Assembly: GCA_963402885.1 (NCBI GenBank)
Contig: OY727098.1
Location: 23,350,417-23,414,416, forward strand
Direction of reading: 5' to 3'
Source: Antedon bifida
Taxonomy: Eukaryota > Echinodermata > Crinoidea > Comatulida > Antedonidae
DNA: 64,000 nucleotides
Shown: piece after piece, positions 907 to 63,867 of the stretch
Numbering within the stretch: the stretch's first letter is position 1
Layout of the letters: each line of letters starts with the position of its first letter
The notes under the pieces: generated by a model
Databases searched by the model: none
Told to the model about the DNA's origin: nothing
What the model saw: the letters and a program-made list of their open reading frames with translations, nothing else
Position numbers and translations under genes: made by a program

Positions 907-3900
907 GAAATGATGGATATATAACAGTTTTAAATTTGTCTCCACAAAGCAACGCTAACACAGGGTACCAATGTTACATTCCTACTACATTCACTGGTTA
1001 TAGTTTGAGTTACGGTAGATCATTTGCAGTAGCGAATGGTGAACAAGGAAATGAAATATCATGGAATGTGCCAGGTTCTGGGCGGTATGGAAGGTATGTC
1101 GCAGATCGAGTTGACATGGGAGTATACTATTGCAAGATAGTGAAAGATGGCGTCACTTCAATCATTCAAACTACAAAAATAAGAGATGATGGTAAGGCAA
1201 ATCTTGATCATTTGGTCTTTGATGCTATACAATACGATTAATGACGATTAATGAAAAAGAATATGGCCAAGTAACTAAATACACCAGCCCTAAATACATC
1301 ACTTTTGGCTTTTACGTTTTATTTACATTTTGGCTTATTTTTACCATGGATATGTTTTATTTGTTTTCATGGTTTTAATATTACTATTTTGGAAAATGTC
1401 AAATATTACGCGAGTTATGTTTATTAGATTTACTAGAGGAGTTTTGAAGTGAGGTGGTGTCGGTTGTGGTTTTTAAATGCCCTAAATATTGCATTTTAAA
1501 TGCTATGCATCTCACTACAACCTTTCTTGTTTTCAAAACAGCCTTAATAACGCCAGCAAATTATAAAAACACAGTAACTGTAAATGTTGGAGTTGATGTC
1601 ACAATTACATTCAACACATACCTGAACAGTGATTTAGTGTGGAGGAAAGATGGATCTACTGCCTTAAAGAATGGAACAGAAACGAGCATGACTTTTGACC
1701 CAGTAGAGACCAGTGATGCTGGGGTTTACGAGATGCATGAGTATGGTTACCGGGAAGATCGTAGGCATGCATTTGTCAAGTTGATTGTCCGAGGTAAACA
1801 ACTGAAGACGTAAAAAAGTATAAAATGAGTAAACCTATTATTTTTTTTTATTGTAAAAACAATCAATTAGTTGTCTAACAAACACGTAATTTATCTCATA
1901 CTGTAATGACAAAAAACGACCAATGACACAACATAAATCAGCAATAAATACATAAATTCCAATATTAACAAAGGTGTTTTTTTAGTTCTCTATTCCTATT
2001 GTTTATACCTACCAATCTTAATTGTTGTATACTCTTACTCTCTCTCTCTTACCCTATATTCACCTTTATTTCATTTATTCCAGTCCATGCAGACAGCGCT
2101 TGCCTTATAGGCTAATATTATTCTTAACATTGTATGAGTTCTCTAACTTTCCCGAAAATTCTGAAATTTGTTCTAGCTGTTTTACTTTATCGTTTTTATT
2201 TTAATTTTATTTGTATTTTCATTGAAATCCACCCACTGATACCCACAGCATTGTCTTTTTCAGTAATTTGCCTTTGGATTAATAAATATAGATATATATA
2301 GGCCTACATTGAACAACCCTTGGCAGACAACTTTCCCAACGTCATCCGTAACGTACACCTTTTAATCAGTTACGCACGGATTTTTTGACATTTGAGTTTA
2401 GATTTTGTATGTTTTTTTATAATAATTTACGTTCACGTATCAACGAATACAATTTCTAAACAAAGTTGGTCTACACTGAAAACATAAACAGAAATATTTT
2501 AAACAAAAAAAATCGATCAAATTTACATTACATTGTCAGATAATTGAAAGACTTTCTGAATTCAGAAAATAGTTCTATCAAAGTTCTATCAAAGATTTAA
2601 TATTACTTTACAGAATATTATGTACCATGTTTTTTTCTCAGCCTGTCCACGTTACAAGTGGAATCCACCTGACTGCACTGGTGACTGTGAATACTGCTAT
2701 AATGGAGGCATATGCGATGACAAAACAGGATTATGTATCTGTGCACCTGGATTTAAGGGATCCACGTGTGAAACTGGTGAGGAGAATGATAACAATACAT
2801 AAATTACATTATTTTTTAATACACGAAGAAGCTTTAAGGCTGATATATTTATGTTTCTATTGAAATATATTGATATCAAACGGTATTTAAAATAGAACAA
2901 AAACGCTCATTTCAATATCTAATTTTAAATATTTTTAGATTCGCATGAACGAAAACATTTACTCTATTATTTTGCTTTGGTTTCCTAGAATGCAATGGTA
3001 ATAGACACGGTTGGAATTGTGAATATCCTTGTGCCAGTGGAGGTGGTCTTACTTCGTGTAGAAACTTTCAGTTTTGCTTACCTGATCCATATGGATGTAG
3101 CTGTGTTACCGGTTACAAAGGATTAAAATGCGATACAGGTAAGACAATTAATATTATAAAATAATGTATAAAATACACAAATTCATTTTTTTTATAGGCC
3201 TAGTTGCGATTTAAAAAAATAATATTGGCCTATATCGATGTTACATTACGTTTCCATTACACTGCAGTTTAACATTCAACAAAGTTTTTTTTATCTTTTT
3301 TTAAATTGATTCATTGATCTTAAATTATTTTGCAGCATGTTCAACTGGTACATTTGGTGCAGACTGTGCTCAAACTTGTCATTGTAAACAAGGTGGTTGT
3401 GATAGATATACAGGAAGATGCTATGACACTCAAGATTCGTCTTGTGCGTACCCATGGACGGGATCTAACTGTCAAAGTAAGATTACGACACATTTAGTAA
3501 AATATTTTAATTGAGATGGTAAAACAATATTAATTTGAAAAAAACAATACGTTTATTTTAATAGAAGACGGGTTAAATTAATTAAAAATTCTTACCCGCT
3601 TTTTATCTATGACTTTTCTCGAAGCATAACGCTGAGGCATATTTCAAGGATACCCGATTCTCAGTGTTGTATCTTTACATAATATAGTTTCCCAGTATCA
3701 TAGGAATATGTTATAATACAGCATGTCGTGACAGGAAACAAACTTGGTTACATTTGTTTTTTGTAGAATGTCAACCTAACTTATATGGAGAAAACTGTGA
3801 TATCGAATGTAGGCCCAATAAACCATGCGATTGTCACAGGACTGGTAGATGCATAGCAGGCACATGTGATCCTAATTGGCTTGAACCTGATTGTAGAAAT

Positions 3901-6900: not shown

Positions 6901-8549
6901 TTGGCAATTAATAGTTATTGTTCCATAAATGGATCGATCTTAATTAATTACTAAAATGATAGATAATTGTATTTATTTCATAATCAGAAAATTAAATCAG
7001 ATGCAGAGACACTGAAATGCTATGACACGTCTTACATGTACAAAGTGTATCTAGGATTGAATGAAGATGATGGAATAGGTGAGGTAGTTTACAGTGGAAC
7101 TGACTCGAACGTGACTATAAATAACTTAAGCTCGTCAGCTTACAGCATTGTTGTTACTGTCTCTAACAAAGACAATGAAAGTGATTATGTTAAAAGCATC
7201 GATACTACAGATACAAGTGAAGGTGGGTATCTCTTAATAATGTAATATTGTTTTCTTATAATTTAAAATCATAACGAAACATATTACGAACTACCAGGAA
7301 ATAGCGAGATACCTCTTTCTCATTACTACATAACTTTTAAAGTTTATTTAATTTCAAGTTTTTTCTTTTGTAAAGGGGGAAAACTAGACTATATCTTATT
7401 GCCAAAAAACAATAAGATATAGTCTAGTTTTCCCCTTTTACAAAAGAAAAAATACATATAGTCCATAAACACAAACATTATTTTACTTCTTAAAATGCTA
7501 ATTCGTTTCAGACGGAAAAACATGCAATTGTGGAAGCATATTTAAATGTTATGTTTTACTTCTTTATTTCGGAACTTATTTAAACTAAAGTTATCTTGCA
7601 CACATGTAAGGTTTATGATATTTTGCTAAGATTATTCATGAATATACCAATCAGTCAGTTTAATATGTTTTTGCTTCTTTTTCTTTTAATAATTCTGAGT
7701 TTCTTTTTTCATTTTAAATCAGAATTAATGTATGTATCTCTACTGCTTTAATTGCGATTGACAGAGTCTTGTAATTAGTGGTTGGCATACTTATTGAAGG
7801 ATTGTTGTTTTATTCTTCTTTTTTTGGGTATTGTCGAAGGGCTGTTACGTTCTTCACTACAATGTCATTAAAATAATATGATTTAACTGTATTACTTTGT
7901 GCTTGTTTTAAAGCAAACAAAGATGGCGGAATAATATGAGTAGGCCTAAGTCTAACGATGATTCCTCGAATGCTCAACATGTTTACACGAATTATGCAAG
8001 TAACGGTTCTTCATCAAGGTAGTAAACATTCCTATCTACGATTACAAAATCCAAATCAATGTATTGAATTCGTTTTTGTGTTTGCATCGTGATTGTTTTG
8101 TCATTGGTTATGCAGTTTAGAAATATTCCAAAGATCTAATTTTCTCATTTCTTATGTTTATTTTATTTAATTTAAAAATCAAAGCAAACCATCAGGTAAG
8201 ATTGTGAGTAAATCTGAAAAGAACGAGACAAATGAGCTACACGTTTACCAAGATTATGCAAATGAGGGTAACAATGCAGAATATTCAACCTGGTAAGTAT
8301 AATATACTAATCCATTTTATTACATCAAATTAATCTCTTATGTATATTGCTAGATTGTGAGAAATATTTTAAATAGACAATGAAATTTCACATTAAGTTA
8401 GCTTCTAATTAATATTCTAGTATTATTCTATAATATTTTGTATCAAATTTGCATATTTTACTTATAAGCTTTTATTAATTTTCAGCGATTACCACCCAAA
8501 TCAAGAAAGTGTTTATGCATTACCTGAGGAATCTGCTTATGTAAATTAG
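907..8549 (+). CDS. locus 1: Tie-like receptor (Ig-Ig-EGF4-Ig-FN3x2), signal exon and TM exon not found
   Basis: Exons read from GT/AG sites and paralogue comparison: Ig1 907-1191; Ig2 1542-1793; EGF-A 2642-2776; EGF-B 2989-3138 (FCLPDPYGCSC); EGF-C 3336-3476; EGF-D 3767-3901; Ig3 4421-4696; FN3-1 4779-5087; FN3-2 5377-5450 and 6988-7222. Phases agree throughout. Tail exons: 7914-8018 (HVYTNYAS), 8185-8292 (HVYQDYANEG) and 8486-8549 (ESVYALP, ending AYVN-stop). At the expected TM position an exon starts at 7512 like its sisters (CNCGS) but then diverges and reaches a stop at 7586-7588. I see no other hydrophobic exon before the tail. The locus may therefore give a secreted or weakly anchored product with stranded tail exons, or it may be decaying. 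Predicted role: extracellular ligand binding with Grb2-type docking tyrosines. The family call is strong; product integrity is uncertain. Confidence 0.75.
2150..2290 (+). repeat. Penelope-like/repeat fragment shared with 42201-42392
   Basis: Near-identical to the element at about 42227-42365 within the segment from tttactttatcg through ccactgatacccacagcatt to cagtaatttgcctttgga. It lies in the locus 1 intron between Ig2 and EGF-A. The 5' part with the hammerhead-like core is degenerate or absent here. Confidence 0.55.
4153..4211. repeat. short hairpin inverted repeat (MITE-like)
   Basis: The arm at 4153-4177 (actgttttgtattgtaaagc...) is followed by an 8-nt loop. Its near-perfect reverse complement is at 4186-4211. 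It sits in the intron between EGF-D and Ig3 of locus 1. Confidence 0.7.
6131..6422. repeat. tandem duplication of about 140 bp in an intron
   Basis: Two nearly identical copies, 6131-6272 and 6284-6422, start with gaaatttt...aaaatcgagtg and end with gccgtctaaaacgtct. They lie in the long 5451-6987 intron that splits FN3-2 of locus 1. The segment right after (6515-6650) carries gaataaacgcctcc motifs, also seen in the element at 38505-39011. Confidence 0.8.
7359..7452. repeat. 94-bp near-perfect hairpin at the missing-TM site of locus 1
   Basis: Arms at 7359-7401 and 7410-7452 are reverse complements apart from about one mismatch in the G/C run, with an 8-nt loop. The hairpin is in the intron just before the degenerate TM exon start at 7512. 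It looks like a small fold-back (MITE-type) insertion. Confidence 0.8.
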
Positions 8550-10686: not shown

Positions 10687-10692
10687 AAAAGT

Positions 10693-13600
10693 ATGCTTGT
10701 TACTGTTACAATCTTGCTTCAATGTATTTGTTCCTGTCTGGGTAAGTTAGATCATAGAGATAGATCCAAACGCCTAGAAGGAGGATGCAGATTAAACAAA
10801 TTACAAATACGATAATCTGGTTTTTTTTCTCAATAAATATTAATAAATATTTGTTTACTTCAATACACTAGAATTTAAATTTTTCTAAACATGATTATTC
10901 AATTAAAACAATTCCATTTTAATGATGTTATAATGTATACCGTTGCATTTTCAAATCACACACGGAAACACGTTAGCGTAGAAATAACACTACGCCACCC
11001 TTTTTACTCACTATCATATCCCAAGGAAATACATTTAATAATAATTATTTATACCAATATTATTTTGTATCTTTTAGGAAAAGAAGGATATATAACAGTC
11101 TTGAATCTATATCCACAAAGCAACAATGACCAAATGTATCAATGTTACGTTCCTGATGTGTTCACTGGTTACACTTTGAGTTACGGTAGATCATTTGCAG
11201 TAGAGAATGGTGAAAGTGTAAATGAAATATCGTGGAATGTGCCAGGCGATAAAGTGAACAAAAGATATGTCGCAGGAGCAGTAGGTACGGGTGTATACTA
11301 TTGCAAAATAGTGACAGCAGATGGCTTCACCACAGTCGTTCAAACTACTAAAATAAGAGATGATGGTAAGGCAATGAGTATGTATAATTTATATTTCCCC
11401 TTGTATGCTTTATATGTATCTTTTTATTTAACTTGTGGACCAAGTTATTATTATGTTTATCTTAATCCAGATCAGCATGCTGTTAAAGTTATGATTACTC
11501 ACCCATCCATTTGCGCTAATCATGTTAAACTATTTTGTTTATTTTATGTTTTATTTTATTATATAAACGATTCAATTTAGGAAAAACTCTTTGAATTTAA
11601 ATTGATTCTAAGCTTAATTAGTCATATTATCATGTAATTATACAATTTCTTTTTTCAAAACAGCCTTAATAACGCCAGCAAATTCTAAAAACACAGTAAC
11701 TGTAAACGTTGGTGATGATATCACAATAGGATTCAACACGGATATAAACAACAATTTAGTGTGGAGAAAAGATGGATCTAATGCAATAAACAATGGAACG
11801 GAAAAAAGTATGTCATTTAATCCAGTAGAGAAAAGTGATGCTGGAGTTTACGAGATGCATCAAAGTGGTATCCGAGAAGATCGTATGCATTCATTTATCA
11901 AGTTGATTGTACGAGGTAAATTCAATTTATTAAATATTTGAATCGTTTAAAACGACGACAAACGATATTGTGACCAGGACATTTCCCTGATATAAACATA
12001 TTTGTTAATATTTAATTAATGTATTGTTAATACGTGGACATGAAAATAAATATACAAGAAAAGTATACAAGCAATACTTAATATAGATGCTATCAAAATA
12101 AGTTAGTTAGAAGTTAAGCTTGTTTTTAAAAGATGATGATGTACTTTTTCAGAGTGTGCTGTTCACAAATGGGGACCACCTGATTGCATTGGGGACTGTG
12201 AATACTGCTATAATGGAGGCGTATGTGATGACAAAACAGGATTTTGTATCTGTGCACCTGGATTTAAAGGATCCACCTGTGAAATTGGTAAAGCATATTA
12301 AGTAAACATATTATTCTTCTAAATGTATTTCTGTAACGTATAGTATATTCTGTAGAGTGTCTTTCAAAGCTTCTGTAGGACTAATACATGGTAGCCTATA
12401 ATGTAATATTTTATTGTTCAATACCACTGTCTGGAGTCTATAGACAGGCAGTAGTTGATTGTCTATAGACACTGTCTGAGAGAAACATTACGAGTAAAGT
12501 GAAATAAGCATCGCAATTATTCTAAAAAGATCCTATGGGGGCCTCTTTAGTCGAAGACTGTTCTTCCAGAGGGCCCAGTATACAGACCAACAAACAGTTA
12601 CAAATTTAAAAAAAGACAAAGACAAAACACAAGATGAATACAACCAACCAGAAACACCTAACCTAACTACAAAAAATGGCAGCAAAAATGCTGAATTGCG
12701 TTTCAATTTATAAAATATGTATACAAATGTTTAAAATTACTTTAAAAAAAATTTAAAATGCCTGCTATTAGTCATAAATAACATATTTAACATCAAAGTA
12801 CATGTATGAAGAAACAGTAAACTACATCAAAAGGCAAAATCACAGATTATTATATAAAAATTGTTATTTGCCAGATTCAGTTCTAGCCTTAGAAGGAAAC
12901 AGATTACGATTATAATTGAATCTGGTAGGATAACTATTAGCAAATTACCTATATAATGTACATTATTGACAAATTAAAGAAAGGGTATTACATGAACAAT
13001 TTGGACAAAACTACAATATAAACATTGCATTTCTTTTCTATGCAATTATCCATTGTAAAGGGTGTACTTAGATAATATATTGGTCAATCATAAAATATGT
13101 TGGAAATTCATTTTCCAAACAACGTACATACACAAATACAAATAAAAACATATACTAAAAATAAGGTAATTAGATTGTCATACAATTATTCATTATAATG
13201 TTATCTTATTGTACGCTGATTTTATACGGCCTAATCTTATTGAATTCATTACAAAAGAAAAAATGTTGTCTGTCAAACATGTTATGTGTTGATATGCAGC
13301 TCGTAATCTAACATGATCTTCATACAGTTTAGTAGTATCGTATTATGATTTAATTTAGGCAATTTGGCATCTTCACGATAAACTACACAGAGTCATTAAT
13401 TCTTTTATTTGATCAAAATTAATTTCAATAAAAATATTAAAAGAAAGTGGTATAAAAATAAAATAATTATAAAAACAATATTTAAAGATGTATTGTCCCT
13501 TGAAACACAAAAAAATGAAGGTCAAAATATTCTAAATTTAAATTGGCCATATCAAAGTAATATTAAAGTTATTCACTTTAAGTTGAAAATTCGAGCCAAA

Positions 13601-19529: not shown

Positions 19530-19535
19530 AAAAAC

Positions 19536-26936: not shown

Positions 26937-26942
26937 AAAAGT

Positions 26943-39240: not shown

Positions 39241-39290
39241 ACCTTTTAGCAAAGCTTTTGGGCAACACTAGCCCTTCATCAGTGCAAGTC
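39241..39290 (-). repeat. fragment of the hammerhead-like repeat, minus strand
   Basis: Read on the minus strand: gcactgatgaagggctagtg followed by ttgcccaaaagctttgcta. It matches 42201-42240 but has AAAA instead of GAAA at the core position. It lies just upstream of locus 5. Confidence 0.55.
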
Positions 39291-39455
39291 ATTTACATAT
39301 TATACTGTATTTGGTTTAAAAGGAATAACAATTCAACAAGTAAAACACGCTTTATAATGCTGACAAGTTATTCAATACAAATCAATAATAATTAATACTA
39401 ATTTCAATTAGCAATTATAAGTTATTATATTTACTTTTTTTTGTAATAGAAAACC

Positions 39456-40736: not shown

Positions 40737-40770
<34 letters not shown>

Positions 40771-42011
40771 AAATCAGGCAAAGAACATTAATTCTAAACC
40801 GCCCGGTGTTACATACTGAAATTTAATTAATTAATTTGAAACGATAAAGATGAGGAAATCTGTGAGAATGAGAAAAAGTCGCCCCAACCGAGACTCGAAC
40901 TCGGACCGCCTGCTTGATATGCAGATTTCACAAATCAAATTCCACCCTCATCATCATTTTGTGCATGCACAAATCATTTTCACAACAATGTACAGACATT
41001 TGGATCATACATTGCTTCATATTTCTTTAAGGAATGTGACTGCTTGATGACAATACACCATGTTTGTATTTATTTTTTCGCAGCATGTCCACGTCACAAA
41101 TGGGGTCCACCTGACTGCACTGGTGACTGTGAATACTGCTATAATGGAGGCGTATGTGATGACAAAACAGGATTCTGTATCTGTGCACCAGGATTTATGG
41201 AGTCTTCATGTGCAATTGGTAAGGTATATATGGTCATTATATAACACAAACCTACACCACCGCCGCGGGAAACATTACATTTTCTTCTTTTATCGTTTTG
41301 TGATCAAACTATTTATTTGATATACACCAGCACAGATAAGTCTGCATGATGTTAAAGCACAAACATGTATTTATAAACTTATTTATTTTGTCTCACATCA
41401 AAGCCGATTCGGTCTGATTAAAAAAAATGCCTTGGTAGAATTGTTCTTTTCGGAAGGGGGCGGACGACTAAATAATTCAGTTTACTAATAAGGCCGATTT
41501 ACACAAGCGGTAACGGTAAGCGGAAACCGCGTGCTTGTCCATGTATAATCTGTATATATCCTGAGTGTGTTTCCGCTCAACTCCGCGTTTTGTGTAAATG
41601 GTCATAAGAAAAATCATGATTCTATATTATATCTACGTTACCGGATAAGAGATGTTGAATTTCGAGTAGGCCTATGTATATTAGGAAAACCACAATTCGA
41701 AATATAAATCAAAGATGGCAGCTTACCGAAATATATTTCCATCAAAATGAGAATAAAATAATGTTGAAATCCGCTTGGTACAAATAAAACGATTGATGCA
41801 AAATGTTCAAGACACGGTAGCTTTTTTATTGGACGATTAATGATGCCATATTATAGGCATTGTCAGTATATCAAATGCATTGGTCAGATATATATATATA
41901 CAGGTTGTAGAATTCTCAGAAATTGAGAAATAGATCTGCTTAGTTGAAAACCTAGCTACGCAAGCAGGACAGGCGTCGTATATTTCCAACAGCAAAAGTC
42001 GACGGAATAGG

Positions 42012-42053
<42 letters not shown>

Positions 42054-42159
42054 ACAAGAGGCAAAGAACATTAATTCTAAACCGCCCGGTGATATACTGA
42101 AATTTAATTAATTAATTTGAAACGATAAAGATGAGGAAATCTGTGAGAATGAGAAAAAG

Positions 42160-42204
<45 letters not shown>

Positions 42205-49057: not shown

Positions 49058-49063
49058 AAAAAT

Positions 49064-52000
49064 ATGATTGTTACAGTTCTAATCTTCATTCAAGTTATCT
49101 TATCCTGCCTTGGTAAGTTATATTTTTAAATACTTCCCGAAAAAAGGGCAACAATAATAGTTCAGGCTACTACTGACGGTAATCACTGTATGTTATAGGC
49201 CTATCTAAACCAACCAACCAACCAACCATAATTGATATAATTTGTATGCCTATCTAATTTTTGTTAAATTGCAAATATTGTCATTTCATTGAATAGTAAA
49301 TAGCATACTGTTTTTTTTCACAGTCTTATAGTAGAATTCAGAGCTTTTAAATTGTTTATTTATTTTGGGCTCTAGGCCTATTCTACGGAAGCCCTTTCGG
49401 ACCATTAGTGAATTATAATTTAAGAGCCGTTATGCCGCACTATTCACTATTGGACCGAGCTTCTGTACTGTTTTCTTTCTATTGAGACAACATGTCTAAA
49501 TATAATACAAATAAAATAATTACGCCGCAATGATGTAAGTTTACAATCTGTGTGTGGTTTATTCATACAAATTAATTTTTCAATAGTTTACACTAATTTA
49601 TGAAATTTAAATAATAAAATAGATTTATCATTTCTCATCCATGTCTTGTAACGGTCATGATGTACAGTATTGGGTCCATTATGATTTATTCAACCGAATG
49701 ATTCAATGTCAGTTACGTACACAAAGGAAAAGCACGGTTACACTCACTATGATTAAAATAGAATCATAAATAAAAGTGCGTCAATTTTCAATCAAAAGAA
49801 CTGTCCATTTATAATAGACATTACACACGTTGGCATTTTGTCCAATTATTTTCTAACATTTCGATTCTGGCAAAGCCCAACAGGCTACGAAATCGTTATC
49901 AAGTATAACCTCTACAGTACTGTATAACTGTACAAAACACCATGACAATGACAAATCCGCGTTAACTGCTGTAGAAATTATTAAATTTTTCATCAAATAA
50001 ATAATACCATTATGTAATGTATTCATTTTAAAATTGTTAACAAGTATGTGATAATTGTTTTCTCCAGGAAATGATAAATATATAACGGTTTTGAGTTTAT
50101 ATCCAAAACATAACAATGCTTACCAATACCAATGTTATCCTCCTACTGGCTATACTGGTTATAGTCTGAGTTACGGTAGATCATTTGCAGTAGCGAGTGA
50201 TGAAAGTTTAGATGAAACATCTTGGACTGTGGGCAGTGGTCGCAAGTATACAACGCCTAATGTTGGCATGGGAGTGTATTATTGCAAGATAGTCAACAAT
50301 GGTGTCACAACAGTCGTTCAAACTACTAAAATAAGAAATGATGGTAAGCAGCAATGATAATAACATGATTCTACAATCAATATTCATTTTCGTAAATTAG
50401 CGCCTAAATAATAGTTATTTTTTCTTTAGACGTCTACTGGTGTAATTTTTACCGTTTAACTTAGCTTTTGACTTTCGACCTACTAATTTTGTTTAGTCTT
50501 AATGATTTTGTATTGCTGTGTTAATTGATTTTGAAATGCAAATATTATGTCGTTATATTTTCAAATGTAAATGTATTATATTGTACACATTCTGTGTGAG
50601 CGAGAGCAACAGATCTGCAGGCACATTAATCGTGGGACTTACTGATACTGAACACTCACTTACTCTGAATAATAATAGTTAGCCTATATCCTTCTTCAAT
50701 AATACATAATAAAATATATGAAATAAATAAACATTTAAAATAACATTTAAAAAAACTACTTTATTTTAAATCTAATCATATCCAATTGATTTTTGTGATT
50801 ATTTTGTCATATGATTTCAAAACAGCCTTAATAACGCCGAAAAATTCTAAAAACACAATCACAGTGAATGTTGGTGATAACGTCACAATTCGATTTGATA
50901 CGGAATTGACCAGTGATTTAGTGTGGAGGAAAGATGGCTCTACTCCATTAAAGATTGGAACGGAAAAAAACATGACCTTCGACCCAGTAGAGACCATCGA
51001 TGCTGGGGTTTACGAGATGTATCAGGATGGTAACCGGGAAGATCGTAGACATGCGTTTATCAAGTTGATTGTAAGAGGTAAAACAATAATAAAGACCACA
51101 ATCAGTATATTGTGATGAATCAATTTAAGTTATAAATAACGACATACTCATCAAAGTGGAAGCTTTTAATGTTTGAAATGGTCTATAAAATAATTATTTC
51201 AATTAATTATTGTTCCGAATGCATTATACAGTATCTGCATTGTACATTATGTTCGAAGGTTGATATCAATAAATTAGGCATACTATTTCTTAACACCAAA
51301 AAAAAAAATCAGAAAAACCTTTCGCCCGCACATACACTGAAAAACTGTATTTTAATATATTTCTTTGTTTATAAACTAAAAATAGTATAGTGATATTTTA
51401 AATATATAATTGGTCTAATTTCCACCATTCAAACTACAGTATTAATACTATTAATGCAAAATGACATTGATGACCTATCTTATAAAGCAGATGATATGAA
51501 ATGTTGTTTTCTTAGCGTGTCCTAATCACAAATGGGGTCTACCTGATTGTACTGGTGACTGTGAGTACTGCTATAATGGAGGTGTATGTGATGACAAAAC
51601 AGGATTTTGTATCTGTGCACCTGGATTTAAGGGAGCGACATGTGAAAATGGTAAGAACTTAAATAAATAATGAATAAGAAACGTAAAATTACTCATAATT
51701 ATTAACGGGTCTGGGCCCTTTGTCACCTGACCTTTTGCCACCCGGCCCTTTGTTGCCACCTAGGCCCGTTCCATCCGCATTTTCCACCTTAGGTCATTAT
51801 GTAATTTTAAGAAATAATTATGAGGGGCAACTGGAGTGATTGAGTCTCTGACGTTGGCATGCTCATAACCTATTTTTTCCCCGCTCTCAATTATTTGGGA
51901 TTTTTAACCTTAGGCCATTATATCATTTTAGAGAACAATTGTATATCATTATAAAAACATTTTTAAAAACACCAATTATACACATTATGAGGGGGAACTG

Positions 52001-55000
52001 GAAAACTGGCGTGGAAGACGTGTAACTTTCCTAGAGGACCCAGATATCAATACATATATCTACTTTCAGTACAATTATTTGAGACTGGGGAATCAATTCC
52101 CTAAACCCCACACATGGGATCCGTCTGTCTATGATCATGCTTTATAATTAAATAGAGCATTCCAGACTATATTTTAAGTTACACTAAATGTTTGCTAGGC
52201 CTACAGAACATCAATAAAAACAAACATCATTTAAAGAAGAAAGAACAATAATTTAAACTGTTACGTCAAAAAGACGATCGAGTGTCGTGTTTTGTAAGAA
52301 TCATTTCTTGTTTATTTAATTATATAATATCATTATTTATTGAATTGTACAATGTTGATATACAAAATATATTACTAAAAACCATAATTGTATATCGTCA
52401 CGAACTCCTATTACGTATGTTTCCGAGCGGTTGAAAATACTTTAGGAACTCCGTCGTGACATAACAGTAGGCCCTATACATACAAAATCCACAAAGTTGT
52501 AAAATAACTCAAAACAAAGCTTTAATTTCAATCTTCTTTTAACAATCCAGTATAGGCCTACACTTTAAACAACAGCTTCACAATAACTTTTACAATCCGA
52601 AATCGAACTATGTTCATATCCTTCTAGATCATTCCTTATACTTATTATTCTATTGGATTACAGTTTCTATTAATAGTATACTTCTGGAATGTTCCTGATT
52701 GTTTTTATATTAATTATACATTGTTTCTTAATACTAAACGTACCCTTATATTCTAGAATGTTCAGATAGATAGATACTATGTTACTGTTTATGTTAAAGA
52801 ATGGTAATTTATTACATATGTATTTATTTTATCGAAATAATGTCTCATTATCTTAAATACAAATAAAAATAAATATCCGACTGTCTGAGGGCACAATTTG
52901 TTTACTTCATTCGTGGCTAAACGATTATTTTCGGCAATGTTTTAGACCCTATATTTCGAAAACTACAAGTCAAATTTCATAATTCTTTCTTTATTATAAT
53001 ATTGATACAATTACAACAATTTATACAGGCAATGTATAATTTGTTTGAAAAATATTTTTTTGAAGAAATATTTCTTTTAGGCCCTATTTATAACACTGTA
53101 TGCATTATTTGTTAACATTAATAAATTCGTATTTATTCGTAATAGTACACTCATTATAACATTTGGTAGGTTCTCATGAATAGAAAACGTGTTATTTTTA
53201 CTTTACGTTTAGAATGCGATGGCAATAGACATGGTTGGAATTGTGAAAATCGCTGTACCTCACGGAACCGTAACTATGCATGTAGATACTATCAGTTCTG
53301 TTTACCTGATCCATATGGATGTAGCTGTGTTACCGGTTACAAAGGATTAAAATGCGATACAGGTGAATACAACATATATTAAATTACAGCATAGTGTTTA
53401 CCACATGCATTTTTAAATGTTATTGTCATTGTTAAGAAAATCTGTTATTCTATTCAAAATCGTCATTATTGTTATTTCTATTTTTATTTTTTATTATAAT
53501 TGTTATTTATTTTTTATTATAATTGTTATTTATTTTTACTATGGTATTATGTATATCATTATCGTAATTAGCAGGCGACCCCAAATCTACCACCTGAGTA
53601 AAATCTGACTGATTTGGCTTTAAAATAATTTATTCAAGATATTTATTGTATTATCGTTTTCCTTAAATCAATTCATGGGTTTTCAATCCACCATGTTAAA
53701 GACTATTTATCGTAAATTGGATATGATGATAATATTCAATTAATAATCGTCATTATACAGAATGTCCACAGGGTACATTTGGGGCGGACTGTGCTCAAAC
53801 TTGTCATTGTAATCCAGATGTTAATTGTGATCGATATACAGGAAAATGCACTGACTTGACCTGTGCATCTCCATGGATGGGATCTAACTGCCAACGTAAG
53901 TCTGAATTTATCAAATGTTTTAATATAGACTGTGAGACAGTAACACAATAATTTCAACAACTTCATACTCTACGGGCTCTCTTCTCTCTTTATTTTTTGT
54001 TAAAATCACATTCTTTTATCATGTTTGCATTTAAAATTAATTTGAGCCTTACAATGATGTCTAAAAGAATAGGAGGAAATGAAATTACAGTTATCTACAG
54101 TTGTAGAACAACTGTCTTTTTATTCCTCTCGAAAGTAAACTATTCTGTGCGTTTTAAAAATGTCTGTCATTGTTAGAAACCTCAGGTGATATACAAGTGT
54201 TGTAATTATGTTACACACCATCATCATTTTATTTCTTAGAATGTCAACCTAACCTTTATGGAGAAAACTGTGATATTGAATGTAATAAGCCATGTGATTG
54301 TCACAGGACTGGTAGATGCATAGCAAGCACGTGTGATCCTATCTGGCTGGAACCTGACTGTGAAAATAGTAAGTTTGTCGTCATAACAATGTTTTGTTAG
54401 ATTCACCAAATCAATTTAACCTTTTATTATTTGAAGTACTAGAGGGTTCACTCGCTTCGCTCGCGCACCCTCTAGTGGGTGTACTCGAATGGTCCTCGAA
54501 AACATGACCAACGCCTCTGGAAATTGATGCCCGGGTGACACCTATGCATATGACTGATGAGTAATGTATGTTTATTTTGTGATGTTTCATGGTGGTCCAT
54601 AAATTAGGTACGCCAAACATATCGCTTCCAGGGTAATATAGCAAATTAGAGTTTAAAAAATGTACGAATAGAGAACAATATAGGCTAATTATTATTATTC
54701 GGTCTTCCGCCGAATGTGTGTGTGAGATTTGAACCTGTACTGAAAATAAGTTTGGTAAGATGCGCAATGTATACCAATTATGATTGATTACGTCCCCTGC
54801 CCGATTAATGATGTATGGACACTTGACAGCAATCGGTGGTTAAGAACGTAAGGGGAAAAGTTACTCAATAGATTTATTTATTTGTAAACAAAATGTACAT
54901 TAATTCTCTCTGTGATGATGTAAAAACTTTCAACAATTGGTATTACAACAATTGGTATTAATGCAAATAATATAATTGTAAAGAACAGTATACGTATAAT

Positions 55001-58000
55001 AGACATAGTATATTATTATATATATTATCTGAACTTTACACACAGGAGGAAACCGTTAATAGGGGTCATCAATCACTGAAACAGTCTCTGTAACGTGACC
55101 GTACCAAGAGACCAAAAGCATATATCAAAGTGGGTGACAGTGAGCGGGGCTTTAACATTTGTATCACAATATATCATGACAACAGCATCTAATAACAACT
55201 TTCGTAGCCTACTTATATTTCGGTCGTAGTAGACACTTTATAAATATAAATAGAGAAAGCAACAGAAATAATCGATAAACAGTAAAGGTGTTTCCCTGGT
55301 AGGCCTCCTATGCTATTATGCTATTTATTAACCATTTTATCAAATTTAGGTGCGATTCAATGTTACTATAATAGTAGCATTGAATCGCACCTAAATTTGA
55401 TAAAATGATTAATAAATAGCATAAATAATTAGTTAAATTACTAAACAAATTGTATTTCACGTAAAGTAAAGGCCTTTATAATTGATATTTGAATATCTAA
55501 AAATCTAAAACAAATAAATTGTAGTTCACGATTCAGTTGAATCACTAAAATCACATTGTAGTTCACGTAAAAGTAATAAAGGCCTTCAATAATAGTGAAA
55601 TTACTAAAACAAATTGTAGTTCTCAATCACTAAAATCACATTGTAGTTCACATAAAAGTAAAGGCCTTCAATAAAAGTTAAATTACTAAAACAAATTGTA
55701 GTTCACGTAAAGTAAATGCCTTTAATCAAAATAATTGATTAGTTGAATATCTAAAACAAATTAATTTCAGTAGTTCACGATACGTTGAACCACTAAAATA
55801 TTTTTTTATTTAATATTGAATGGCGCCACCAACGGCCATTTTGCCGAAAGTGACGGACCCGGAAGCCAGTTGAACAACAGCGCGAGTGTGTGAAAATAAC
55901 CCTGTGATATCCACAAATTTCGATAGGTAACGCTAAATTTTGTCGTTGTAAAAGACAAAAATGGAACAATAGCGTCGATGTGAAAACTAATGTTATCAAA
56001 TCTACGTTTCGCGGTACATCTGAGATAGATAAGGTAGGTATCCAAGGCGGAGATTTGTACCGAAGTTTTTGCATTGTGCTCGCCTATGTCAGAATTAACC
56101 ATAATTTATATATAGATGCAAAATCCAATGACTAATTGGAGTTTTATAAGATTCATTTTTTGTAATTTTAAAGAGTTCCAAGGGGTTTGGGCATTATCAA
56201 CTAGTCATAATTTAACTTCATATGTAATTTTGCGACGTTGACGCTTTCGCACTGTTGCTTCACAATTGTTAAGTAAGTATTACAATACCATAAAAATAAC
56301 CAGACTGCCTTGACACAAATACATTTTAATGATTACATGATTTTTAAGTAGAAATCTAAAATGACTATAATAGGTTGAATTCATTTTGTTTTTTCATTCT
56401 ACAGGAATCCTTACTACCAAATTTACACCAGCAAATAACGGGCAGATTACAACTGTGTCATGTTCAGTTAATCAGACTGGTACATACGATGTTCAAACAA
56501 TGATTATGATGACTAATAATGACGTCACTGAGAACATCACAACAGCAGAAACAAATAGAGATGGTCAGAATATAACACATACATTTTCTGTGATAGCTGA
56601 TGCTGATTCGACATACACATGTGTAATTTCACGACAAGGTTACTTTGTTGAAAGTGATATCATCACAGAAATATTTCGTAAGTAATTTATAAATAACCTA
56701 AATTAATACATAATTTAAAGCGCTTACAGTATATCTTAGAAACTTCACGAATGTTTCTAAATAAAACCTAACAATTTTTTAAAAGGATTACCTTCATACA
56801 ACGGACGTTTGACGATACTTAGTATTTCAAGCTCCGTTATCACCATTGAATGGACGGCATGGAACAGCAATACTGACGATGGAGCTGATGGTCCAGTTGA
56901 CCAATACGTTTTATACCACAAACTGAACAATACTGATGATTGGAATATTGGGCTATTGCAGAATTTGTTATCAGCCACTGTTACTGGGTTGATGTGGGAT
57001 ACAAAATACGATTTCGGTGTTTCAGCTGTGAGACCTGGTGAAAGGGGTGAAGGACCAATTGGAGAAGAAACCGTCACAGCAAAAACGATTTGCGGAAGTA
57101 AGTTATTATTACCTTGAATCTCTTAATTTAACGAAGCTGGCCATTGTATACATCGACAACGTTTATATACGTAATTAAGAAATGCTAACCGAAAAAGATA
57201 CTATCATATCCATCTGTCTCTAAATATAAATAAATAAACACACTGTTGAATAACTGATAACCGTTTCGTAGCGCTTGAAACGATAAAACAGTGAATCAGA
57301 CAACAACTCATGTCGAGTGCTGCCACCAAACGGCGCTAATTCATCTGTTCACCACGGATATGTACCAGTAAACCTAACCGGGGTGATCCCTACTCTTCCG
57401 AAAAATACACAGGGTTATTTAAAGTACGATCGAGCCATTTGACGCCACCCTGTACCTCCAGTTTTGTTAAGTCTTTATCGAGTATCGAGAATACTTGCTC
57501 CACCACCAAAACTTGACCGAACTTGAATTTGTGTTCTTAGAACATAAATCTATTAGATTATGAAGAGTTGTATGAGTTTTTATATGAACTTATTTAAATA
57601 CATTACTTTGTGATCTCTCTTGATAGCGCCAGCTTCAGTGAACGACGTGAATCATAAGGTTTCCGAAACAAATTTACAAAATATATTGGTGACCTGGACA
57701 GTAAGTAAATATGAATTTGTATTCCGTGCTCATTTCTTTTCGAAATTACGTTGACACATATAGATATAGGCCTTGTTGACTTTTGTTTGAGGTTGTGTTT
57801 GGTTTAGTTTAGCGCACGAAAGAACAAGAGAATATGATTGAATAACTTAGTTTTTTTTTTTTTTTGTCTTTATCACGTTTTATGCAAAAGTAAAATGAAA
57901 AAAATATAGACCATTTATAGTATACAATTAGAAGCAAACGACTCTTTCAAGTACATCGTCACTTAGTTCTTTGTTCCATATTTTAAAAAAATAAGAAAAA

Positions 58001-61000
58001 GTGTTGATTAGGTCTATTGTGATTTATTAAATTCTATTTTTATTTCAATAATATCATATTTAGCAAATTAACGCAGATGCAGAGACACTGAAATGTTATG
58101 ACACGTCTTATATATACAAAGTGTATCGAAAATCGATTGATGATAATGGAATAGGTGAGGTGGTTTACAGTGGAACTGACTCAAACGTGACCATAGATAG
58201 CTTGAGCTCGTCGGCTTACAGCTTGTTTGTTACTGTATCTAACAAAGACAATGAAAGTGATTATGTTGAAAGCGTCTATATAAGTGAAGGTGGGTGTTTT
58301 TCATTATTTAAGGAATGAATAAGTAATCGTTTCTAATAAATTATATATTTTTTTAGAATATCTCATGGAGTCATTTAATATTTATTTACGTACTGTGTAT
58401 ATATTTTAATCTAAATGTATCAGAAACCGAAAGCTAGTGGGGCTGCTTGGTGGTTTAGATGCTCAACTACCAACCCCATGGTCTTTGGTTCAAATCCTGT
58501 CATATGATGATTTTCTTATGACAACTCCTCTCCCAATACTTTGTTTTTAGAGCATCGTGTATAATATGTTTGTCTTCGTGATTATTTAACTTTACACTTC
58601 ATTACCCATGTGGCTATCCGGCCTTACCGGTAGACTTGTCTCCAATCCGTTATATAAAAAATAAATCATGCTGATTACGATTAATCCCTTTAGCACAAAA
58701 TCACGAAAAGCTGTGTTTGTATTAATTTATTTATTGATAGTAGGCCTACAATTCGTAACTAACACTACCATATTATACTGAAACAAAAAACAATATTCCG
58801 TATTTTCTGATCCAGATGGTAACAGCTCAAGTAGTGCTAGTGGTGGTATTATTGGTGGTATCGTTGGATCCCTCGTTTGTATACTTGTGTTGGTTGCGAT
58901 TGTTATAATAGTTATGTATGTATAAATATTGATTTATTATATTAGCCATTTAGAATAAACATTTTTACATGTAGAATAAGCAAATTTGAAAACGTTCAAC
59001 ATGTATTAAATACCATCATCATAGCGGTCCATTATCGTCGACTATGATTGATTTAATATGGATCAGTTTCCTCCACTTGACTATGTTTTGAGCCAGTCTG
59101 TCGTTGGTATTAATCGGCTTCGTTTTATGGTGTCCTTGTACCTGAGTTCGGGTCTGCCTCTATGTCCAACACTTAGTTTTGGGAATCGAGTATTTTCAAG
59201 CCTACCAACATGAGTACATTTTAAGCCTGCTTTCTGTATTTCATCACATAATGTCAGAGCTTGATTTTTAATAATTTGACGTGTTCCATTAAGAAGGCGT
59301 GGATCTTCTTCAATTGGGAGGATTAATGGTAACTAACATTAATATTAAATATAATTAAAACTAAAACTGGACAATCTGATTTATTTAATTTTACTGAACT
59401 TTATTTTATTTTGCGATCATAAGGAAAAGAAAAAAAGACAAACGCACTGCACATCGGGCGAGACAAGATAGCATAACATTTGAAGGTATATTGATTTTAT
59501 TTCACTGTCTTCAATAGTGATTATATCCTCATATGTTTTTGTCGGTACTTGTATTGTTAACAATGTTAATTTGGAACGATGTTATATAGTATTTTAAAAT
59601 AACACTACAGAACGCGTACTTATTTCATCATTTTAATATGGATTCTTTCTAATGAATATAAGAATATTGTAATTGATTTTATACATTTTTAGACGTTACA
59701 TCACGCTCAGTTGATTCAACAGCGCCATCAAACGTTGATTTTCCAGAAGATGGATCTTTTTTATACGAGAACGTCCATGCGGTTCCATCAACAAGTACAT
59801 CAACATTTTCTCGAAGAATTCAAATTTCTGATTTGGTTGCATATTTTGCTCATACGCTTTCAACAGACTTACACAATGAATTTGACGTTAGTAAAACTTG
59901 GATTAATTTACTTTATTACGTTTAATCAAATATATATATTTCCTGTTACTTATGTAAAAGAAATGCAAAATTCATTAAAAAAAACAGCGGCTGGAAATCA
60001 CAATACGCTTTAACCATTATTTTTATACCTTCCTGCTTTAAAATAGCTTTATGCCTATTACTATTCGTTTTTGTTTTGTTTTTTTATTTTTAGCTTCTAC
60101 CTGTCGATCAGGCTCACCCATGGGAAGTAGCAGCCAAAGAATGTCACAAAACTAAGAACAGATTCAAGAATATCGTCCCATGTAAGTAACAAATGTCTTA
60201 AGTGGCTGCGTAAAATTGACGTGAGAATAAATACACATTAATTATTTGTTGTTTTAAATTGGGAAATAGTTCAACCAGCACAATTGTATTTGTTTATATA
60301 AACATGTATTCTCCTTAGATGATCATGCAAGAGTCGTGTTGGAGAAGATGAACGGTGATCCTGATTCGGATTACTACAATGCAAGCTATATCGATGTAAT
60401 TATCATGTGAAACACTTTCTCTATACTGCAAACATATTTTGTTTCTTGACTGGGAAAACATTAGAAAAGAAAGAAAGTACAACTTACCTCAGAATAATCT
60501 GATAAATTACTCAACACACCCACCACCCTCATTACAAAGGAGAAATAAAGACACTTTGTGTGCAATACTGTTCCGTATCGGTCTATTCCTCATAAAAGGT
60601 TTTGTAACATAACTCCTGTATGTTTAATTTATGCGTCGATTTGATAGAGTGTTTGTGAAACCCTTAATGCACATGTCCGGTAGTCTATATCAACCCAACA
60701 CTTGGAGCAATTTCTTACTCTGTTTTTATGCTGATTATTTTAATTTGTCTTAGGGTTACAGTAAAACGGAGCACTACATAGCGTGCCAAGGTAAGAATAC
60801 ACAAATTATATAAAAACCAGGCTCAAGAGAAAATAAACTTTGATCTAATATTTTGAATAATATCTTTATGACAACAGTACTGAAGAAATTAATTTATAAA
60901 TGTCAGTATAAGTTTAAATCTAATAGTCAACAACACCTAAGCCCGTTTTTTACTAGGTATATATTCGCGCGAATCGGACAAACCTAGGTTTTGATTGAAT

Positions 61001-63867
61001 GCACAATCTTCACATCACGTCAAAAAAGTAGTTGAAAATATACGCATGCGCACTAGTCAACGTTTTATATTCGGGCAAATAAATTGATTTGATTTGATTT
61101 GAATTAGGAAAATCATCATAAAAAATACATATACAAAGTGATAACATAAATTACGGACATTACAATTATACGGATAATACATTTATAAAAGATTTTCCAG
61201 GATAGCCCCAAAAGCTTATTAGCTTATTTCCATTTGGATACTTTAGGCTAAATTCGCTTAGTGGAAAACATGTTTATATGTTTTGACGAATATTTCAGCG
61301 ACACTTACCACAATCATCATGAGCGTTCTAATTCTAGATGACCATTAATCATTTTTTAACAGGTCCTAACAAAAACTCTCTTGGTGATTTTTGGCGAATG
61401 ATCTGGCAGAAAGATATTAAAGTAATCGTTATGCTTACAAACATTCTTGAAGGAAATAAGGTGAATAAACCGTCAATATTATATTTAATGTTACGATAAA
61501 CATAGATGGATTACAATTACGATTTGAATAAAAAGATATAGTTTCTTTACGACCAGTATTTTTGGGTCCGTTTTAAGAAAACAGTCAAATATAACAATTT
61601 GTATTTAGCTTGACGTATTATATTTCTTTTTACAATCATTTACATGGATATACTAATTAAAATGTTTATCTAAATCTACAACAAGGAAAAATGTAAGAAA
61701 TACTGGCCCGATGAACAAGAGAATTTTGTTTTCGATGACATCACTGTAACGGTTACTAATGAAGAAACAACCGAGGACTACACAACAAGAACGGTGCGAA
61801 TCGTAAGTATTTAAGCTTGATAAATTGATATAGATAAATATTGGTAATAGCTTCATTGAATTTTGGCTTATTTTACAAGCAATTAAATTTCATATTGATC
61901 ATCTGTATTACTATTATTCTGGTTATACTTAGACCAACACGGTCAAAAAAACAATGCAGACGTAGAGCAAGGAGCTTGTGGGTAATGAATTTCCTTTAAA
62001 TGATTCTTTTTATATTATTTTATAAAAAAAAACGGATCATGAATATTATATATATATTATATTCAAGGTTTATTCAATAAAAACAAAAATTTACATTGTA
62101 GCCGAAGGCTAAATTGTGTAAAACTTCTTTGACCCCGGTATTAGTACACTGCAGGCAATATTACCCAATGAAACGTTATTATTAACGACACGTTAAAAGT
62201 GTAATGCATTTTGGCCTATTTAATTGAATTATTAATATTAAAACACGAATCATTATCATGAATCAGAATGATTTATACTTTTTTAATATGATATTTCGTT
62301 CAAAACTATGGTTGTATTTTTTGTATTGATATCAGTGTGGATTCTACTACTTATGTTTTAGGAAGAAAATGAACAACGTACCATTAAGCAGTTTCATTTC
62401 ACTCAATGGCCTGATAAGGGAGTACCAAAGTCTGCTTCAGAATTACTGCGTCTTATTCAGAAAGTGAAAAGTGTACGAGGAACTTCTTTGACCCCGGTAT
62501 TAGTACACTGCAGGTAAAGTGCAATATTACCAAATGCTTATACAAGGTATGATTAGGAATACATTCTGTATTAAAAAAAAAACTTTTCTTTTTTTAAAAG
62601 TTCAAAGTGTACGTAGTTTACTGGTATTGAAAAAAAACCCGGTAGAGTATAGCTAGGATAGTGTCATCGTTAGGTCTACTTCGTTAAGTAAAATTAATAA
62701 CATCCAATATAAAAGATGTTAAATCAATTTATTTACGGTCTATGTAAGAAACTATCCACACAATAAGCCTATTATATCATCAGATTGCTGGAATTACTAA
62801 TACCATTGCTTATAAATACTAGAAATTGTGAATTATGACAGTGCTAATTATCATTAAAACCTCAAATTAACGATTGTTGTTTTGTTTATTACAGTGCTGG
62901 TGTTGGCAGAACCGGGACCTATATTGTCATTGACGCCATGTTGGATATGATAATGACTGAAGAAGCTGTTGATATTCTTCAATACATAAAAGATATTCGA
63001 GAAGCTCGCATTAGTATGGTTCAGACTCCGGTAAGTTAAATACAAAAAAACGCCTCTTACTTTTAAAGGCCTACTTATGATAAAGTGTATACACTCTTTA
63101 TTATTTAAATTTATTTTTTGTTGGTAATACTTGACTTCTAGCATAGTTAATAATATAGATGTCTAATGTTTACTTTACTGTACACAGTACAAATTAAAGT
63201 ATCAGTAAATGACCTTTAAGGCAGAAATTGGATGCTACAGGAAATGGTTTTTTAAATGGGTCTAAGATGATAAAACCCTAATCTGTTGTGCATTATATGA
63301 TGTTAACGAATGACAGTCATCCTTCCTATCATTTGTAGGAGCAGTATGTGTTCATTTACAGCGCCTTGTGTGAGTTTTATCTAAATGGTGTTGTACAATT
63401 TCCAGTCTCCGAATTTACAAGTCGAATGAAAAAGTTGAAGCGTACAAATCCTAAAACAAAGAAAACGTTCATTGAAGAAGAATTTGACGTAAATATTATA
63501 TTTTTAATATATCTATTTTTATAGGTATTGCTCATTTATAACAATTGATTAGCATATATAATTGGTATTAACATTAACGCAATGACAAACCATTCTGTCA
63601 TAAACTGAAAAATGGAAGCAAGTCGTAATGTCTGATTAACTGACTAACTAACTAACTAACACATTTGGAGGTAAAAATTATCTTACTGTAATATCTATCA
63701 TCCCATTCTTCTTCATAATGTAAGTCAATAAAATTAACAGCTATCTTTACGTGTTTGTCAATGACAGATGTTGGTTTCTGTAACTCCATCGCCACCTCTA
63801 GAAGAAATGTTGAGTGGACGTCAGGAACATAGTATCAAGAAAAACCGATTTGGAAATGTGTTGCCAG
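49064..63867 (+). CDS. locus 6: Tie-like ectodomain fused to receptor tyrosine phosphatase (3' incomplete)
   Basis: Ectodomain exons: signal 49064-49112; Ig1 50068-50343; Ig2 50826-51077; EGF-A 51516-51650; EGF-B 53213-53362 (FCLPDPYGCSC); EGF-C 53761-53895; EGF-D 54240-54368; Ig3 56405-56677; FN3-1 56786-57097; FN3-2 57627-57700 and 58064-58289; TM 58816-58915 (GGIIGGIVGSLVCILVLVAI). Cytoplasmic exons: 59424-59485, 59693-59886, 60094-60181, 60319-60395, 60754-60790, 61363-61460, 61686-61802, 62362-62513, 62895-63030, 63339-63488, 63768-63867. All phases fit (3322 nt, at least 1107 aa). D1 carries KNRF (60094 exon), YYNASYID, the WPD loop QWPDKGVP, the P-loop HCSAGVGRTG across the 62513/62895 junction, and Q-loop QTPEQYVF. 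All catalytic residues are present, so D1 should dephosphorylate phosphotyrosine. The last exon begins D2 (KKNRFGNVLP) and the gene continues beyond the window. A juxtamembrane LYENV tyrosine is notable. Confidence 0.88.
54435..54770. repeat. GC-richer repeat with short hairpin
   Basis: ctagagggttcactcgcttc with gcgcaccctctag forms a short stem at about 54439-54476. The following roughly 300 bp is richer in GC than its surroundings. It lies in the EGF-D/Ig3 intron of locus 6. The minus-strand frame over it is not supported as a gene. Probably a repeat of unknown class. Confidence 0.4.
55318..55425. repeat. ~108-bp near-perfect palindrome
   Basis: The arms tgctatttattaaccatttt... and ...aaaatgattaataaatagca run into a centre of ttactataatagtag and contain gtgcgattcaatg / cattgaatcgcac. 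Almost no unpaired loop remains. In the long EGF-D/Ig3 intron of locus 6. Confidence 0.8.
55439..55800. repeat. irregular tandem array of a ttgtagttcacgtaaa unit
   Basis: The core aattgtagttcacgtaaa(a)gt is followed by aaaggcctt and (t)actaaaa(c)aaa. It recurs about six times with variable spacing (55448, 55520, 55557, 55613, 55641, 55696, 55770 regions). It follows the palindrome directly. No coding function seen. Confidence 0.65.
58436..58680 (+). mobile_element. tRNA-derived SINE-like element
   Basis: A tRNA-like head: A-box-like ttggtggtttagatgc at 58447-58462 and the canonical B box ggttcaaatcc at 58487-58497, about 30 nt apart. A non-tRNA body of about 170 bp follows, ending near tataaaaaataaa. 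It lies in the intron before the TM exon of locus 6. The cloverleaf is not complete, so a SINE is preferred over a tRNA gene. Confidence 0.55.
59030..59335 (-). mobile_element. possible retroelement coding remnant, minus strand
   Basis: The minus strand contains an open stretch reading RLLNGTRQIIKNQALTLCDE and, further on, RGRPELRYKDTIKRSRLIP, in the same region and interrupted by stops downstream. The second part resembles the C-terminal tail of LINE ORF2 proteins (R..LRYKD..K). It lies in the locus 6 intron after the TM exon. Low confidence on class. Confidence 0.35.
62122..62165 (+). pseudogene. duplicated 3' end of the phosphatase catalytic exon
   Basis: aacttctttgaccccggtat through ttagtacactgcag repeats the end of the exon at 62481-62513 (which encodes TSLTPVLVHC), followed by gcaatattacc as in the true intron at 62521. 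The seven bases gtaaagt, which form the real donor, are absent from the copy. It lies 0.35 kb upstream in the preceding intron. Confidence 0.75.

Follow-up and report, generated by a model that had tools for sequence, protein, structure and literature searches.

In vertebrates, Tie is the kinase receptor of the vessels, and controls blood vessels through its built-in kinase. What are genes with the outer part of a Tie receptor and no kinase doing in the genome of a crinoid, and through what could they signal? In this work, we have analysed a stretch of 64,000 nucleotides from Antedon bifida (C11:23350417-23414416, contig OY727098.1; the window), in which six tandem loci on the plus strand are built of homologous exons and carry a Tie-type ectodomain with no kinase. 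The original prediction had read them as an expanded, kinase-less, Tie-like family; our results support that interpretation, and the observations beneath it were confirmed in part. We propose, with a little more confidence than doubt, that the window is part of an array of tandem genes for type I receptors that derive from Tie but lack the kinase, and that these would work as paired receptors with opposing phosphotyrosine outputs.

The exon models of the six loci are collected in Table 1. It had been predicted that all six share every exon, and most of the order is indeed common to them; the exceptions are locus 5, which lacks Ig3 and has EGF-D and FN1 in one exon, locus 2, which lacks EGF-D, and locus 1, for which no candidate signal exon lies inside the window and whose signal exon is probably the one at C11:23341477, 8.9 kb upstream of the window start. 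The models of loci 2, 4 and 5 are complete and open, as are the ectodomain and TM exon of locus 6 and the ectodomain of locus 1. In these five models (for loci 1 and 6, their ectodomains) all 58 introns run from GT to AG, and the ectodomain introns are mostly of phase 1. Two loci are damaged. Locus 3 is a pseudogene, with the stop codon in EGF-B that had already been noticed, a frameshifted FN1 exon, and tail exons that were looked for and not found. In locus 1 the homology of the TM exon to its paralogues breaks off after about 30 bases, so that a membrane-bound product is doubtful. In locus 5 (window positions 45640-45690), the acceptor that the paralogues use for the first tail exon is altered, and the next AG, at 45682, is in frame and makes the exon a few codons shorter. 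The interval between loci 5 and 6 contains an open frame of 198 aa (47973-48566, plus strand) in which Pfam recognises a reverse transcriptase domain (RVT_1, 6.5e-14); it is probably a LINE.

Table 1. Exons and other features of the six loci, in positions of the window
Feature	Positions	Strand	Remarks
Locus 1, ectodomain	Ig1 907-1191, Ig2 1542-1793, EGF-A 2642-2776, EGF-B 2989-3138, EGF-C 3336-3476, EGF-D 3767-3901	+	Open, no stops
Locus 1, 3΄ part	Ig3 4421-4696, FN1 4779-5087, FN2 5377-5450 and 6988-7222	+	Locus 907..8549
Locus 1, TM exon remnant	7512..7541	+	Compared at DNA level with its paralogues, C11:23425377 and 23446496
Locus 1, tail exons	near 7914-8017, 8186-8292, 8487-8549	+	End AYVN-stop
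Locus 2, 5΄ part	signal 10693-10741, Ig1 11078-11365, Ig2 11664-11915, EGF-A 12153-12287, EGF-B 14247-14396, EGF-C 14679-14819	+	Locus 10693..18742; open model, 762 aa
Locus 2, 3΄ part	Ig3 15331-15609, FN1 15695-16003, FN2 16358-16431 and 16709-16937, TM 17040-17136	+	
Locus 2, tyrosine tail	17432-17530, 17852-17965, 18670-18742	+	
Locus 3, pseudogene	19536..24454	+	Same exon order as far as the TM exon ending at 24454
Locus 3, in-frame TAG in EGF-B	21592..21594	+	Immediately 5΄ of FCLPDPYGCSC
Locus 4, 5΄ part	signal 26943-26991, Ig1 27242-27529, Ig2 28287-28538, EGF-A 28962-29096, EGF-B 29705-29857, EGF-C 30159-30299, EGF-D 30598-30723	+	Locus 26943..35952; open model, 824 aa
Locus 4, 3΄ part	Ig3 30842-31120, FN1 31890-32195, FN2 32444-32511 and 32646-32874, TM 33008-33104	+	
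Locus 4, tyrosine tail	33532-33696, 33955-34065, 35879-35952	+	
Locus 5, 5΄ part	signal 39456-39504, Ig1 39937-40212, Ig2 40444-40695, EGF-A 41084-41218, EGF-B 42477-42632, EGF-C 43193-43324	+	Locus 39456..46296; open model, 685 aa
Locus 5, 3΄ part	EGF-D fused with FN1 43641-44054, FN2 44309-44385 and 44816-45038, TM 45315-45435	+	
Locus 5, second tail type	45682-45780, 46173-46296	+	DDYATV
Locus 6, ectodomain	signal 49064-49112, Ig1 50068-50343, Ig2 50826-51077, EGF-A 51516-51650, EGF-B 53213-53362, EGF-C 53761-53895, EGF-D 54240-54368	+	49064..58919
Locus 6, 3΄ ectodomain and TM	Ig3 56405-56677, FN1 56786-57097, FN2 57627-57700 and 58064-58289, TM from 58816	+	
Locus 6, phosphatase D1 (several exons)	59693..63030	+	WPD loop in 62362-62513; signature HC/SAGVGRTG spans the 62513-62893 junction
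Locus 6, end of D1, linker, start of D2	63339..64000	+	D2 with WPV instead of WPD

By sequence comparison, our results show that the ectodomain of the array is homologous to that of the Tie kinases. The spliced ectodomain of locus 6 matches TIE2 at 8.1e-51 (phmmer, PDB) and the next family, a receptor phosphatase ectodomain, at 1.6e-5, so that TIE2 leads the PDB matches by 45 orders of magnitude. The alignment is one collinear run of 250 residues that takes in the end of Ig1, the cysteine-less Ig2 and three EGF repeats. The EGF-B signature was found as predicted, as FCLPDPYGCSC in loci 1, 2, 3, 5 and 6 and as FCLPDPYGCTC in locus 4, and the EGF-B exon by itself matches TIE2 at 2.6e-9 with FCLPDPYGCSC identical. 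Ig2 was rightly described as free of cysteines (none in any of the six exons); of the Ig2 end that had been reported directly before EGF-A, LIVR is present in all six loci and DAGVY in five, locus 5 having NAGVY. The order Ig, Ig, three EGF, Ig and FN3 is that of a Tie-type ectodomain, except for the missing Ig3 of locus 5 and for the two FN3 domains of the array, where TIE2 has three. Could the genes belong to another Ig-EGF-FN3 family, their likeness to Tie being convergent? Pfam gives only generic FN3 and EGF matches on the ectodomain, the Ig1 profile alone found no relative in the PDB, TIE2 included, and the Ig2 profile finds generic Ig chains there, so that the Tie assignment of Ig1 and Ig2 depends on the alignment of the whole ectodomain. 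That collinear alignment with its identical signature nevertheless argues against convergence, as does the same EGF-B (FCLHDPYGCSC) in the kinase-bearing Tie gene of this genome; no better non-Tie family appears among the PDB and Pfam matches. Convergence is thus already disfavoured, and we consider it very improbable.

A kinase was searched for with a TIE2 kinase query in 272 kb that include the window, and none was found (best E 0.17), while the same search reaches 8e-32 on a Tie gene; this local search is a stronger test than the Pfam kinase scan, which scored 131 of 779 candidates and in which absence means little. Splicing of these exons into a downstream kinase would have contradicted the prediction; no kinase exon was found downstream, and the tail exons of loci 1, 2, 4 and 5 reach their own stop codons. 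The flanks had been named as a place to check for a kinase-bearing member; a Tie kinase gene lies 10 Mb away on the same chromosome, where the query finds exons 46-81% identical (C11:13.2501-13.2547 Mb). This gene was read from EGF-B through the kinase, Ig1, Ig2 and EGF-A being upstream of the sequence read; C11 13.2335-13.2549 Mb holds, in order, EGF-B, EGF-C, an Ig exon, FN3 exons, a segment judged by eye to be TM, and eight matches to the kinase. Five of its exons were submitted to Pfam, which gave one Ig (1.2e-4) and two FN3 (1.7e-11 and 2.7e-9); the remaining two are FN3-like by eye, with no Pfam match. In a second gene, at C11:4.04 Mb, of which the kinase part was read, the joined kinase exons match TIE2 at 1.6e-96 and FGFR1 at 1e-53, and further partial sets of kinase exons lie at C11:13.207, C11:24.34 and C1:14.56 Mb. 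These genes rule out that the Tie kinase was lost from the genome; since Tie kinases are retained, the array is an added, kinase-less branch. Tie is also known beyond vertebrates, sea urchin SpTie1/2 having been described as an orthologue (PMC12113024, and a reference in PMC13409769).

How large is this branch? The six loci of the window, which stand as predicted, are one third of an array of 18 Ig1-led loci over about 270 kb, a family bigger than first stated. Tyrosine-tail exons are present in 11 of the 18 loci, tandem phosphatase exons in five and neither in two; the map of the array covers 264 kb, and the phosphatase exons of 23517410, which lie outside it, were taken from separate searches. 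Across the genome searched (315.6 Mb, 27 contigs), an EGF-B query finds 104 places at E<=1, the weaker of which need not all be Tie-type, and 55 at E<=0.001; 18 places are at least 67% identical, 17 of them in C11:23.266-23.520 Mb and one on C15. An Ig1 query finds 20 places, namely the 18 of the array, one on C15 and a weak one at C11:7.05 Mb. The copy on C15 (C15:7173067-7175274) belongs to the array subfamily and is a lone, dispersed copy on another chromosome (Ig1 72%, EGF-B 78%). A more distant Tie-type ectodomain lies on the minus strand of C13:11108000-11116999, with Ig2, EGF-A, EGF-B (YCLPDPYGCSC), EGF-C and weak FN3; a C-type lectin exon (Pfam 1.2e-13) comes after it, perhaps another partner of Tie ectodomains. 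Dozens of FN3 exons within 45 kb at C1:12147000-12192000 are perhaps a titin-like gene. Inside the array, stray FN2b-TM-x3 cassettes with no ectodomain follow genes 23420004 and 23438589 (C11:23428854-23429850 and C11:23449968-23450958). They were considered as alternative tails of these two genes; as no terminal DYATV exon could be found behind either, we read them as relics, a reading short of proof.

Contig C27 of the same assembly is a mitochondrial genome of 15,844 bp. In its nad1, read against residues which we take to be conserved, AAA encodes Asn (AETNRTPFDL) and AGR encodes Ser (WVRASFPRFRYDQ), which is the echinoderm reading of both; a tunicate origin was considered and rejected on these codons. 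The gene nad4L, placed by eye, stands between nad4 and nad5; a unique rearrangement of nad4L in crinoids was reportedly described by Scouras and Smith in 2006. The cox1-sense strand has 46.7% T, 26.4% A, 15.4% G and 11.4% C, to be compared with 44.9, 26.9, 16.1 and 12 in the crinoid Florometra, the one echinoderm set beside it here, whose composition has been called crinoid-specific (PMC7748595). Code and composition together speak for a crinoid.

Which outputs replace the kinase? The predicted joining of the ectodomain to a tyrosine tail or to a phosphatase agrees with the order of the exons on one strand, through which splicing would unite them, and falls short at locus 3, where the search for tail exons found none. 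In locus 6 the ectodomain, TM and phosphatase exons follow one another on the same strand and would form one transcript. Its roughly joined phosphatase exon translations match Pfam Y_phosphatase at 7.3e-73, D1 has PTPRA/PTPRE as its closest PDB match and carries both the WPD loop and the HCx5R signature of receptor phosphatases, and D2 runs about 2.6 kb beyond the window, to about C11:23417.03 kb. The WPD and GVGRTG motifs of D1 are intact in all five phosphatase genes of the array, in each of which D2 has WPV. With the TM query, no TM exon was found in three other phosphatase genes, which counts against paired receptors. Over the whole genome, at least 30 of the 104 EGF-B places have a phosphatase exon of the same strand no more than 40 kb downstream, with no other EGF-B in between (from a list of 150 scored among 299 candidates, and nearness is not splicing), which suggests, without proving it, that the joining of Tie ectodomains to phosphatases is widespread. 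The tails of loci 2, 4 and 5 carry YxN and YxxP motifs and one DDYATV. No canonical ITIM or ITAM was present in these three tails, which again counts against the favoured explanation. One tail exon, x4, was searched genome-wide and gave nine matches, seven of them in the array and the other two weak (E 0.17 and 4.4); we infer that the phosphatase form is the older one and that the tail form arose within the array.

Our comparisons also uncovered a possible route between the two outputs. Gene 23438589, which has a tyrosine tail, is 98.6% identical to the phosphatase gene 23461844 over 7.8 kb, up to the FN1 exon, and from FN1 onward it is 96-98% identical to the tail gene 23420004. The interval between the FN1 exons of 23420004 and 23438589 is repeated between those of 23438589 and 23461844, with 96.3-98.7% identity outside gaps of up to about 2.3 kb; the duplication unit is thus about 21 kb long, 96-99% identical, and has both ends in FN1 exons. 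Genes 23438589 and 23461844 are 0.92-1.00 identical in seven ectodomain exons, so that near-identical ectodomains stand on different outputs. Gene 23438589 therefore looks like a recent hybrid, in which the ectodomain of a phosphatase gene was joined at FN1 to a tyrosine tail, and since its two parts match different genes and the repeat unit is bounded by FN1, one unequal crossover at FN1 accounts for it; an assembly error may be an alternative source. Similarly, 23263849 and 23283956 are 97-100% alike in FN2b and tail, and their Ig1 exons have other nearest relatives, at 70 and 73%. In a tree of the ectodomains the phosphatase label needs five changes for five genes; against this scatter it counts that good support is limited to one of the 14 inner branches and that no more than two changes are forced by the supported branches. 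In a tree of FN1-FN2b the label needs four changes, and the three genes of DDYATV type fall together in one group with support. It is possible, although less likely than not, that crinoids evolved from Tie a whole recombining recognition system, in which dozens of ectodomains would swap phosphatase and tail outputs at the FN3 exon seam, for use in immunity or allorecognition.

Alternatively, the proteins could be labels for adhesion or self-recognition, whose ectodomains would bind in trans, either to each other or to variable partners, and whose tails would signal the contact, as in the fester co-receptors of Botryllus. The large tandem family, the hybrids, the tyrosine motifs and the diversity of Ig1 and Ig3 (mean pairwise identity 0.64 and 0.57) would fit this, and the fester co-receptors are likewise Ig-type receptors with tyrosine motifs (PMC12065747). 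Against it, dN/dS, a crude measure here taken over non-independent pairs and pooled rather than site-wise, is 0.17-0.58 in the nine exon classes, below 0.6 in each, and gives no sign of an excess of amino acid change; we consider such labels unlikely. The same low values, together with the complete open models of loci 2, 4 and 5 and the five intact sets of phosphatase motifs, speak against an array made mostly of relics, that is, of recombining and decaying copies with little function. Such decay would explain pseudogene 3, the broken TM exon of locus 1, the rearranged locus 23303584, which lacks EGF exons, and the stray FN2-TM cassettes; as an account of the whole array we find it quite improbable.

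We therefore return to paired receptors. In favour of these we count the TIE2 match, the map of the array, the search of 272 kb that found no kinase, the phosphatase motifs, the hybrid gene, the scattered tail types, the dN/dS values, x4 and the YxN and YxxP motifs; the dead locus 3 and the doubtful locus 1 count against them. The ectodomain is followed in order on the same strand either by tandem phosphatase exons (locus 6 and four further array genes) or by short tail exons rich in YxN and YxxP (11 loci), to which splicing would join it, and unequal crossover at the FN1 exon, for which one gene provides the case at sequence level, would reshuffle outer parts and tails. The outer part would bind ligands carried by other cells or by particles. 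On engagement of a tail receptor, its YxN tyrosines might be phosphorylated by Src-type kinases and could then recruit Grb2-type SH2 adaptors, and a phosphatase receptor of similar specificity could, through its active D1, strip the phosphate from the same or neighbouring tails. The balance between the two would set the response of the cell, the cell type being perhaps the coelomocyte. Expression of SpTie1/2 in sea urchin coelomocytes was reportedly described by Stevens in 2010. SpTie1/2 is expressed in coelomocytes of the sea urchin (PMC12113024) and starfish coelomocytes carry a Tie-2-like protein plus a receptor phosphatase (PMC13409769); coelomocytes are for this reason a sensible first place to look, and no more.

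Would the array instead tune the ordinary Tie kinase? Its members could share angiopoietin-like ligands or form heteromers with the kinase, the phosphatase members dephosphorylating it and the tail members acting as decoys or scaffolds. Kinase-bearing Tie genes coexist with the array in this genome, and the ectodomain homology spans the EGF block and Ig2, which in Tie2 is the ligand-binding domain; regulation of Tie2 by VE-PTP is established in vertebrates. Five phosphatase loci and 11 tail loci make a large number for a modulator, however, and Ig1 is private to the array and to one copy on C15, save one weak match, so that sharing of ligands with the Tie kinase is not implied. We regard this tuning as rather doubtful.

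The array does not coincide with any of the known systems to which we compared it. With the Tie receptor kinases (vertebrate TIE1/TIE2 and sea urchin SpTie1/2) it shares the succession of Ig, cysteine-less Ig, three EGF, Ig and FN3 and the EGF-B signature; it differs from them in having no kinase, usually a fourth EGF, phosphatase or tyrosine-tail exons, and a tandem arrangement. Locus 6 and the four other phosphatase genes resemble the tandem receptor phosphatases (PTPRA/PTPRE, LAR type, CD45) in their paired domains, with an active-looking D1 and a D2 without the catalytic Asp, whereas their ectodomain is of Tie type and the array offers a second kind of tail beside the phosphatase; we know of no named vertebrate receptor phosphatase with such an ectodomain. 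The paired immune receptors that evolve by birth and death and domain shuffling (Xenopus XFL, FcR/KIR type) also have clustered copies, common ectodomain types and differing signalling outputs, and in XFL, Ig subtypes and TM subtypes are joined combinatorially (PMC2413239). In contrast to these, the array, known here from its genes, descends from Tie and would oppose YxN/YxxP tails to a built-in phosphatase instead of relying on FcR-gamma association. The fester co-receptors too are a family of Ig-type receptors with tyrosine motifs in an invertebrate deuterostome; unlike the array, they combine V-type Ig, sushi and C2-type Ig domains with motifs of ITIM/hemITAM type, and the description consulted names no EGF block or phosphatase domain in them (PMC12065747). 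In the open-licence literature that we searched, we found no report of a kinase-less Tie or Tie-phosphatase family.

What does this mean for the Tie family? In this genome, Tie-type ectodomains are far commoner without a kinase than with one, and stand beside two opposite phosphotyrosine outputs with a visible route of recombination between them. Consequently, an ectodomain match to Tie in an echinoderm does not by itself identify a kinase. If a recombining recognition system did evolve here, one and the same outer part could, in the course of evolution, be moved from one signal to its opposite. As a natural experiment, such a genome bears on the origin of paired receptors and on the first targets of Tie ectodomains.
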